This document shows, piece after piece, positions 9,163 through 13,145 of a stretch of DNA of 24,421 nt (position 1 is its first letter; each line of letters opens with the position of its first letter). Both the position numbers and the translations under genes were made by a program. The notes below the pieces were generated by a model, which did not search any database, was not told the origin of the DNA, and saw nothing but the letters and a program-made list of their open reading frames with translations. Source of the stretch: an uncultured Bacteroidales bacterium. Lineage in GTDB: Bacteria > Bacteroidota > Bacteroidia > Bacteroidales > Paludibacteraceae. The stretch lies in contig CAMOJA010000017.1 of the NCBI GenBank assembly GCA_946616535.1, positions 1-24,421 of the forward strand, in the 5' to 3' direction.

Positions 9163-9579
9163 TCACTTGAACTTCGATTCTTCTAATTTAAGTGAAAAGC
9201 TGATACCCTGGAATACATCGAACCGCATCAGGAGACTCCAGTAATGAGATCCAGCGACAACTTTCTTGACGTCTCCACAGAGAGCCGGAGCAAACTCAGA
9301 CGGCACGTATCCGATATCGAAAAACTCTTTGCTACGGCCTTTAGGAGCTGCATACACTTTCAATGCATTCGGATCCGTCTCGTTATCAGGCTCAGGAACC
9401 ACCTTACAGCGGAGATATTCGGAAACTTTGCACTCATTCAGATCTATTTCGGCTGCTTTCACAAGTCCACGTATGCCATCGAGGTGGATATTCCACGAAG
9501 TAACCTCGATAGGGTATGCAACGGAACGGTTAACGGTTTTAACTTGAACCGGTTTAACTGATTTACTAAACAATCCCAT
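9163..9579 (-). CDS. HIRAN-domain-like protein
   Basis: A 138-residue protein, the only convincing minus-strand gene. The start at 9579 has GGAGGTG close upstream (CCTCC at 9587-9591 on the plus strand). Residues about 60-125 carry the HIRAN signature: VVPEPDNETDPNALKVYA then IGYVPSEFAPAL. HIRAN domains bind DNA, in HLTF the 3-prime end of single strands, and occur alone or fused to helicases and nucleases. Here it stands alone, with a beta-strand-rich N-terminal part. A role in recognising replication or repair intermediates, or in early regulation, is inference. Its promoter overlaps the rightward early promoter, so it is probably expressed independently of the late operon. Confidence 0.75.
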   Translation of the reverse strand: MGLFSKSVKPVQVKTVNRSVAYPIEVTSWNIHLDGIRGLVKAAEIDLNECKVSEYLRCKVVPEPDNETDPNALKVYAAPKGRSKEFFDIGYVPSEFAPALCGDVKKVVAGSHYWSLLMRFDVFQGISFSLKLEESKFK

Positions 9580-9597
9580 AATAACACCTCCATAGCA

Positions 9598-9626
9598 ATT
9601 ATATCACGTTTTCCTTGTTGACAAAA
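9598..9626 (-). promoter_or_regulatory. Leftward sigma-A-type promoter for the HIRAN-like gene
   Basis: On the minus strand, TATAAT (plus 9598-9603) lies 17 bases after TTTTGT (plus 9621-9626), or 15 after TTGTCA. The -10 is a perfect consensus. Predicted initiation is near 9592, leaving a very short leader that begins at the GGAGG. Its -35 overlaps the -35 of the rightward promoter. Confidence 0.7.
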
Positions 9627-9646
9627 GGTAAAAATGGGATTATTAT
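9618..9646 (+). promoter_or_regulatory. Rightward consensus promoter for the RNA and early operon
   Basis: A perfect -35 TTGACA at 9618-9623 is followed by a 17-base spacer and -10 TATTAT at 9641-9646. Predicted initiation at about 9653-9654 coincides with the first base of the 18-bp terminal stem described next. This is the strongest promoter-like sequence I see in the window. Confidence 0.85.
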
Positions 9647-9653
9647 ATATATA

Positions 9654-9828
9654 GTGATTCGAACAATTGCATATACTGACAGGGCGGTGAGGGAAGACCC
9701 AAACCGCATTAAAAATAGCACCAACTATTCCTAAAATCATAAAGTAAAGTAATTTTGCTCATCGTTATGATAAGCCCGTTAGGGCAGGGGATAGTCGTGA
9801 TAATAACTACATATGCAATTCGAATCAC
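9654..9828 (+). ncRNA. Candidate structured RNA or 5-prime leader with closing terminal stem
   Basis: The 5-prime arm GTGATTCGAA-CAA-TTGCATAT (9654-9674) is complementary to ATATGCAATTCGAATCAC (9811-9828): 18 pairs with one 3-base bulge. Inside are several local helices. GCGGT (9684-9688) pairs with ACCGC (9703-9707) and encloses GGG-AAGA-CCC; AATAG (9714-9718) pairs with CTATT (9725-9729); TCAT-CGTT-ATGA spans 9759-9770; GCCC-GTTA-GGGC spans 9774-9785. No ORF with a ribosome binding site fits the interval. The start matches the predicted transcription start. It ends 38 bases before the next gene. It could be a stand-alone phage RNA, a riboswitch-like leader, or paired operators for DNA looping. 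I do not recognise a known RNA class. Confidence 0.6.
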
Positions 9829-9865
9829 CGAAATATAATGAATCTTATATGGAGGTGATTTTTTA

Positions 9866-10267
9866 ATGAGAAAACGTGTTGTGAAGCAATTCGCCATCGT
9901 CCAGGGAGACTCGGCTCAGACATTCACAGACGAACTTAACAAGAAGCTGGTAGAGCTGGAAGGAAAGGACATCTCTATCGACTTCTACGAGAACTTCCTC
10001 GGAGCGAGGATCTCCTGGCCCGAGAGCATCGGAGAGGAACCCGAGACGGTAGAAGAGGAATATGAAGTCCTCGGAGCAGGATTCCGCTGCAACCAGTGCC
10101 CGATGTTTCAGCTGCAGCTTAAGTCGGACGGAACAGCGGACAGCCGTGCAAAATTCGGCAGATGTATTCTTAAAGATTACGGCAGAGTATGCGGAACGTC
10201 CAGGGCGTGCGAAAAGTTATATCAGATGATCCAGGCAGGGGAGGTGCAATTATGTTTAGCAGATTAA
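9866..10267 (+). CDS. Hypothetical early protein with Cys-rich C-terminus
   Basis: A 133-residue protein, first gene of the rightward early operon, with a near-ideal GGAGGTGAT binding site at 9851-9859. The N-terminal half is mixed alpha/beta and acidic (EEPETVEEEYE). The C-terminal half has five cysteines in the arrangement FRCNQCPMF, FGRCILKDYGRVCG and RACEKLY, suggesting a zinc- or metal-binding knuckle. I do not recognise a named family. It directly follows the candidate structured RNA, so it is the gene most likely to be controlled by it. Overlap of 16 bases with the next gene indicates one transcript. Confidence 0.65.
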   Translation: MRKRVVKQFAIVQGDSAQTFTDELNKKLVELEGKDISIDFYENFLGARISWPESIGEEPETVEEEYEVLGAGFRCNQCPMFQLQLKSDGTADSRAKFGRCILKDYGRVCGTSRACEKLYQMIQAGEVQLCLAD

Positions 10268-12764: not shown

Positions 12765-12949
12765 TGAACCTTCGAGACTGTGAAGGCCTCTATAAGTGCG
12801 GAATGGGAACGGACGAGAAGTGTAGGAAAGCATTATGTCCATTCTATAAACCGCCGAAAGCAGAAGAGAAGCGAATCAGATACGTGCTGGACGATTTCTC
12901 TGGAATATGGAGAGAGGAGGAAATTGATGAAACAGATACTGATATCTGA
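12764..12949 (+). CDS. Cys-rich small protein
   Basis: A 61-residue protein coupled to the nuclease by an ATGA overlap. Four cysteines occur within 20 residues (DCEGLYKCGMGTDEKCRKAL then CPFY), the typical look of a small metal-binding phage protein. The second half is acidic (WREEEIDETDTDI). Overlap of 23 bases with the XRE gene. Function unknown; comparable microproteins cluster at 16574-18195. Confidence 0.6.
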   Translation: MNLRDCEGLYKCGMGTDEKCRKALCPFYKPPKAEEKRIRYVLDDFSGIWREEEIDETDTDI

Positions 12950-13145
12950 TGAGCTGAACACCGGCGAGATGATCAAGAAGATCCGAGCCGAGAAGAACAT
13001 AACCATGCAGGATCTATCCGAAGCGTCCGGCGTTTCGATATCCGCCATATGCAGATACGAAAAAGGCGCAAGGGTTCCAAATATGGGCACATTCGACAGA
13101 CTGATGAAGGCCATGGACGCCGACGTCACGATAGTCACTAAATAA
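12927..13145 (+). CDS. XRE-family helix-turn-helix regulator
   Basis: A 72-residue protein. ATG 12927 has AGGAGG at 12915-12920; longer in-frame starts lack a site and run through the previous gene. The region GEMIKKIRAEKNITMQDLSE then ASGVSISAICRYEKGARVPN is a textbook Cro/CI-type HTH (recognition helix around SISAICRYEKG). There is no C-terminal dimerisation or peptidase domain, so it is a Cro-like or ancillary regulator and not a full CI repressor. It sits directly before the 208-base control region, which contains a perfect 7+1+7 palindrome (13290-13304) as a candidate binding site. Confidence 0.85.
   Translation: MKQILISDELNTGEMIKKIRAEKNITMQDLSEASGVSISAICRYEKGARVPNMGTFDRLMKAMDADVTIVTK

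Follow-up and report, generated by a model that had tools for sequence, protein, structure and literature searches.

Leaders of the riboswitch type, whether they act through a terminator/antiterminator pair or by sequestering the SD sequence, are built from two mutually exclusive hairpins that share one strand. Systems in which integration or excision of an element changes its gene expression have also been described, as have phages that use the dif site of their host. The dif-using phages TLCphi, VGJphi and CTXphi of Vibrio cholerae are already known (PMC4246890, PMC5357621; also PMC3025954), and for TLCphi an attP with one good arm and one degenerate arm has been described (PMC4246890). Tn916 is known for circularization-dependent expression, in which excision joins promoters at one end of the element to genes at the other end (PMC9632896). 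In mycobacteriophage BPs, attP has been described as a switch, with integration truncating the repressor protein (PMC4557955). Finally, the XerS/difSL system of streptococci and lactococci is described as a single recombinase linked to its site (PMC5357621).

This work concerns the leader of an early phage operon in a stretch of DNA of 24,421 nucleotides, the whole of which is referred to here as the window (Table 1). On the basis of the sequences compared, we consider it likely that this gut phage has its attP within the leader of the first early gene and that integration at dif by a host XerS-like recombinase splits an RNA switch. We also favor, with slightly less assurance, the reading that this switch reports the integration state: the two strands of its stem would lie at opposite ends of the prophage and come together in one transcript after dif recombination, a design that would be common to many phages with different stems. 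The switching step is what we infer; the anatomy of the leader, the match of the core to dif, the prophage junctions, the scarcity of integrases and the pairing statistics are read from the sequences themselves.

Table 1. Features of the early leader and its surroundings (window coordinates)
Feature	Position	Strand	Basis
Divergent gene with HIRAN-like domain	9163..9579	-	ORF; PF08797, E 4e-5, just under cut-off
Early promoter, TTGACA / 17 nt / TATTAT	9618..9646 (TTGACA 9618-9623, TATTAT 9641-9646)	+	score 11/12
P1 5' strand, promoter-side half of predicted closing stem, first bases of the transcript	9654..9674	+	folds; partner 9811-9828
P2 hairpin, GCGGU..ACCGC with GA/AA internal loop	9684..9707 (9684-9688 / 9703-9707)	+	fold
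Probable attP left arm and core, AACTATTCCTAAAATCATAA	9723..9742	+	identical to left part of host-type dif site
Degenerate right-arm region of probable attP, variable between phages	9743..9760	+	close relatives; right-arm comparison across phages
KOPS-like octamer, GGGCAGGG	9782..9789	+	sequence comparison
P1 3' strand, gene-side half of predicted closing stem	9811..9828	+	folds
OFF hairpin (alternative), AAUCACC .. AUAUAA .. UUAUAU .. GGUGAUU, burying GGAGG 9851-9855	9823..9860	+	folds
First early gene, 133 aa, undescribed family, four invariant cysteines	9866..10267	+	

Because the promoter scores 11/12, position 9654 is the likely start of the transcript, in agreement with the original prediction, which had placed the first base of an 18-bp closing stem at the start of a consensus promoter. 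This closing stem, P1, pairs GUGAUUCGAA (9654-9663) with UUCGAAUCAC (9819-9828) in its outer part and UUGCAUAU (about 9667-9674) with AUAUGCAA (9811-9818) in its inner part. The claim that such a stem is beyond chance was borne out: the segment 9654-9868 folds at -61.8 kcal/mol, compared to -40.0 +/- 4.0 for 200 dinucleotide shuffles (z -5.42; 0/200 as good), with the longest single helix alone being less striking (p 0.03 against shuffles). The ribosome-binding site (RBS), which had been thought spatially separate from the structure, turned out to be linked to it. AAUCACC (9823-9829), with which the closing stem ends, can also pair with GGUGAUU (9854-9860) around GGAGG, and the resulting OFF hairpin would compete with P1. 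The centroid and the lowest-energy fold of the window leader disagree on the choice between the two. The computed probability of the OFF hairpin is 0.60 in the joined leader and has a median of 1.00 behind 60 host flanks, with a minimum of 0.034 behind one of those 60. As modeled, the window leader can fold into either a stem or an SD hairpin, which exclude each other, as an attenuator- or riboswitch-like leader would.

The leader had been said to match no described class, and Rfam indeed holds no matching family: at gathering score, 6S RNA included, the window, 18 genome loci and 15 viral loci gave 0 matches. At E<=10, the window leader retrieved only a chance snoRNA match, and a search of INPHARED returned chance matches only. 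A free RNA of ~175 nt, 6S-like or otherwise acting in trans, would explain the length, the long terminal stem and the start at the promoter, but no Rfam family matches it, the 3' strand of the stem is bound up with translation initiation at the following gene, and the two strands are parted in the prophage (see below); we regard it as highly improbable. What survives of the original prediction is a phage leader that is structured, lies close to its promoter and shows some covariation. The stand-alone 6S-like RNA of ~175 nt is unsupported, because the P1 3' strand is also the partner of the RBS and because the most conserved inner block is a chromosomal dif half-site.

Close relatives of the leader were found at seven viral loci (one identical to the window), which keep both ends and P2. 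Of the interior helices that had been predicted, P2 with its GA/AA internal loop is present, while the inner part at 9743-9795 is hypervariable among these relatives. A further locus, L032 (on the contig of L043), is laid out in the same way, with altered stems; it encodes a downstream protein 71% identical to that of the window and shares AACTATTCCTAAAATCATAA with it. The 16-mer of this sequence is found in 106 viral stretches, of which many derive from rumen metagenomes and some are plainly chance matches. Compensatory changes had been suggested as a check for both the terminal stem and P2; in a 10-sequence alignment, 4/8 pairs of P2 are changed on both sides, and the outer part of the closing stem has no double change. 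For the structure as a whole, the same alignment exceeds shuffles in double-changed cells (15 versus 7.0; 0/500) and in covariation score (0.159 versus 0.087; 0/500) but is no better than shuffles in the number of pairs with double changes (5 versus 4.1; 160/500) or of pair types (16 versus 15.1; 193/500), so that two of five covariation measures fail.

The conserved block leads to the host chromosome. A 20-mer scan covering one genome of each species gave at least 119 stretches, mostly from MAGs of Mogibacterium and other Clostridia, together with isolated unrelated matches; in 96 of the 119 listed, AACTATTCCTAAAATCATAA forms the left part of a palindrome, AACTATTCCTAAAATCAYAATTTTSGGAATAGTT. 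When 93 chromosomal sites among the matches listed were aligned, the 34-bp palindrome proved to be conserved and its flanks not; with conservation confined to the palindrome, the possibility that the chromosomal copies encode a host RNA was rejected. The exact 20-mer is present in 72 of the 247 genomes searched in the family of M. timidum, in one copy in each, and is missing from the other 175. Among 37 genomes of the genus with the core, more than one copy was found only in G011 and G009, where the extra copies are phage-borne. GC skew flips from plus to minus at the site in both complete chromosomes examined, those of E. minutum and M. pumilum. The octamer GGGNAGGG, the KOPS octamer of E. 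coli, and the heptamer GAAGAAG are both oriented toward the site, at ratios of 23:2 and 134:29, respectively, in sampled E. minutum DNA and of 7:0 and 106:21 in M. pumilum. A tyrosine recombinase is encoded 3-22 kb from the site on the same contig in 7/7 genomes, although not immediately adjacent to it. XerS was the best NCBIfam model for this linked recombinase in 5/5 cases tested, at 145-161 bits; since these scores lie below the model cut-off of 267, we use only the label "XerS-like." We propose that the 34-bp site is the dif site of Mogibacterium-like bacteria, a proposal that these sequence comparisons support well.

A LysM/YneA-like protein is encoded downstream of many chromosomal sites (37/100 clustered downstream proteins), which we take as a neighborhood effect. 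In 20 of the 37 such loci, by pattern, a second conserved motif, GAGGC..TTTTAAGCG or parts of it, lies between dif and the LysM/YneA-like gene; chromosomal loci with a motif of this type include L138, L164, L172, L197 and L239.

The phage copies of the site differ from the chromosomal ones in their right arm. A full right-arm match to GGAATAGTT was seen in 4/56 phage leaders (the set is described below), compared to 77/96 chromosomal sites among the matches listed, and the host right arm was found in 0 of 81 phage-type instances. How the two kinds of site recombine is visible in genome G011, in which a prophage carries the core at both ends, 37.3 kb apart and on one strand. One end consists of the promoter, GTAGTTCC, the core and an intact host right arm—that is, an intact dif. 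At the other end, a host gene is followed by the core, the phage right half, GGAACTAC within a terminator and the first phage gene. By sequence, promoter and operon are thus joined in the window form and parted in the G011 prophage. A second genome (L161) has a left junction of the same kind, with host flank, core, phage right half, SD hairpin and first gene in order, and its host flank resembles those of L182, L192 and L250. In total, the junctions found comprise only two on the left and one on the right, and the search did not yield the window's own host and prophage. Taken as sequence evidence, the junctions make attachment at dif a well-supported conclusion. The HIRAN-like gene of the window comes last on the promoter side and would thus occupy the far end of a phage genome linearized at attP; the G011 prophage likewise has a divergent gene at its promoter end.

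Few of these phages appear to encode an integrase. The G011 prophage encodes no PF00589 recombinase, and a Pfam scan of 30 ORFs found no integrase in the window, which may be incomplete. Tyrosine recombinases (PF00589) are missing from 47/50 phage records and PF00239 recombinases likewise from 47/50, many of the records being fragments. The three records with PF00589 have it at G257:C1:27617-28078, G290:C1:10543-11007 and G274:C1:7391-7801; in G257 and G290, the gene precedes the attP core by about 0.5-0.7 kb. Given a left arm and core of dif type, a degenerate right arm and 47/50 records without a tyrosine recombinase, the core in the window is probably an attP used by the host Xer system. 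The octamer GGGNAGGG, to which we liken GGGCAGGG of the window, occurs on the plus strand within 90 nt downstream of the core in 12/56 phage leaders (0.22 expected), with 0 occurrences on the minus strand and 0 upstream in the same 56 leaders, and at 0/96 chromosomal sites among the matches listed. Its direction would send FtsK across the prophage toward the end with the intact dif.

These findings bear on whether the leader might sense a ligand or a protein. A ligand riboswitch was an early reading, dropped when it emerged that the conserved 20-mer is one half of a chromosomal palindrome. In its broader form, a riboswitch-like leader with a P1/SD platform, whose dif-like core would have been acquired so that a host factor could recognize it, is in keeping with the aptamer-like layout, with P2 and with the P1/SD alternative. 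Weighed against the dif half-site as the conserved sequence, recombination exactly at the core in G011 and L161, and a P2 and inner loop that are missing or different in many phages, it seems very unlikely to us.

To follow the stem beyond the window, we used 81 instances of the leader (the window, 76 viral loci with at most one instance each and 4 MAG loci). Removal of similar upstream regions left 57 leaders, or 56 after L040 was dropped as a chance match; because leaders were gathered by the exact core, conservation of the core is overstated in this set. A Watson-Crick stem pairing the promoter side with the gene side across the core is significant against shuffles in 30/57 leaders at p<=0.05 and in 13/57 at p<=0.01, and the other 27/57 have no individually significant stem. 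The P1 strands vary in sequence among phages and still pair, as in TGGCAAGT/ACTTGCCA and GGTGGCGCTT/AAGCGCCACC. Among the 30 leaders in which the stem is significant, 24 offer the gene-side strand a second possible partner, located on an SD strand in 17 leaders and ahead of a T-run in 7. The window itself is scored among the six without such a partner because the automatic test picks its inner helix. In folding of transcripts that end just past the stem, P1 forms in 30/30. In the phage sub-group L037, L039, L042, L086 and L089, AAAACGTGCATTTTTCAACG is common to all and lies between the core and the P1 3' strand.

A strict test looks for a triple of strand, complement and second copy of the strand. 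Triples of >=7 nt were found in 14/56 leaders, compared to 0.6 in shuffled and 3.1 in swapped controls, and triples of >=8 nt in 9/56, compared to 0.0 and 0.9, respectively; the window's own copy falls just outside the search span. An earlier swap control that allowed G-U pairs had placed 11/57 leaders above the 99th percentile of swaps and 25/57 above the 95th, but many P1 strands copy the RBS, which weakens this control; the shuffles and the triple test with both controls came after it. A promoter scoring >=9/12 lies upstream in 46/56 leaders, compared to 10.3 in mononucleotide shuffles.

The arms of the stem could instead be DNA sites, either an operator or accessory sites for the recombinase, with the RNA fold incidental. 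Inverted arms that flank a recombination site, with the GGGNAGGG motif nearby in 12/56 leaders, are what such sites might look like, but the arms differ in sequence between phages with complementarity kept, and the gene-side arm pairs with the RBS or precedes a T-run; we give this reading even less credence than a sensing leader. The original prediction had named conservation of the arms as protein-binding DNA sites as the finding that would count against an RNA. In the wide set, the strands differ and the pairing is kept, and what is conserved as a DNA site is the core that the strands enclose.

The sequence of events that we favor is as follows. The tailed phage would integrate at the host dif, most likely by means of the host's own XerS-like recombinase. 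On joined phage DNA, RNA polymerase would start at ~9654 and make the P1 5' strand first, and this strand would capture the P1 3' strand as the latter emerges, keeping it off the RBS (in the window) or out of a terminator (in other phages), such that the first gene and the early operon are on. Crossover at the core would carry the promoter and the P1 5' strand to one prophage end and the P1 3' strand, the OFF hairpin and the early operon to the other. In the prophage, the early genes would be left with no promoter, and read-through from the host would meet the OFF hairpin with no antidote strand. Since integration parts the two halves of the leader, the first gene is probably shut off, and excision would re-activate the early operon. 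Catalysis by Xer, kinetic capture by P1, silence in the lysogen and re-activation upon excision are the steps that we infer. Folding supports the capture mechanism unevenly. In G011, P1 is predicted to hold in transcripts ending 0-12 nt beyond the stem; in the full transcript at equilibrium, P1 has a probability of 0.0 and the terminator one of 1.0, and capture by P1 must therefore be kinetic.

A simpler account is that attP merely sits between promoter and operon, so that loss of the promoter is the off switch, as in Tn916 circles, and the stem serves only to stabilize or insulate the transcript. The anatomy of G011 would suffice for this, P1 is not individually significant in 27/57 leaders, and the terminator wins in full transcripts. 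What makes promoter loss as the sole switch unlikely in our estimation, if still a serious contender, is the reuse of the gene-side strand in an SD or terminator hairpin in 24/30 leaders with a significant stem and a triple test that exceeds both controls. A protein regulator may also act besides the leader, as the early operon encodes a Cro/C1-type HTH protein (window 12780-13145).

The gene that such a split leader would control is itself conserved. A first ORF follows 51/56 leaders, and all 51 belong to one family (5/56 have no ORF); the four cysteines are invariant in 52 aligned members. Among 120 loci with the 16-mer, 89 have the first-gene family and 31 do not (chance matches, short contigs and prophage ends), although this count is no independent test because most loci were fetched by the core. 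The protein has no Pfam family above cut-off and no match in INPHARED, and the 52 family members tried against PHROG gave one weak match only. Of two structure models, the first was poor (pLDDT 65) and the second good (pLDDT 88); with the latter, neither PDB nor viral folds gave a match at E<=0.001. If the gene is off in the lysogen, its product probably does not trigger excision; our guess is that it acts in lytic commitment or blocks re-integration.

If the favored account is true, a group of phages from rumen and gut has its lysogeny set by DNA topology, as read through RNA, with integration as the off switch and excision as the on switch. The finding also proposes a dif site for Mogibacterium-like bacteria, together with a set of tailed phages targeting it, and the combination of core, split stem and first-gene family offers a marker with which such phages can be found and assigned to hosts. 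In addition, the system opens both the reporting of genome integration by an RNA stem and the role of the four-cysteine protein to direct test.

Searches of an open-access library brought up no system in which an RNA stem is assembled by recombination. The present phages resemble the IMEX phages in that they mostly have no integrase, target the host dif and carry an attP of one arm and core with a degenerate second arm, and in that an intact dif is restored at one end (here seen in G011). Unlike the IMEX phages, which are filamentous or satellite phages with XerCD, the phage described here is tailed, has a Mogibacterium-like host with an XerS-like system on which it would depend, and carries its attP inside an early leader. 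The proposed dif resembles the XerS/difSL system in having a recombinase linked to the site and in the arms, where TTTCCGAAAA and TTTTCTTGAAA resemble ATTCCTAAAA and TTTTSGGAAT; it differs in its 34-bp length, in the distance of 3-22 kb to the recombinase and in recombinase scores below the XerS model cut-off. As in BPs, attP is placed such that integration alters a regulatory product, but there a repressor is truncated, whereas here an RNA leader, known from sequence, would be cut in two. As in Tn916, a promoter and genes from opposite ends would be joined by excision; here, the junction is a phage attP, and the joined transcript would also gain the antidote strand of the SD or terminator hairpin. 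Exclusive hairpins with a common strand are shared with leaders of the riboswitch type, with the difference that we propose no ligand: the input would be whether two halves of DNA are joined.
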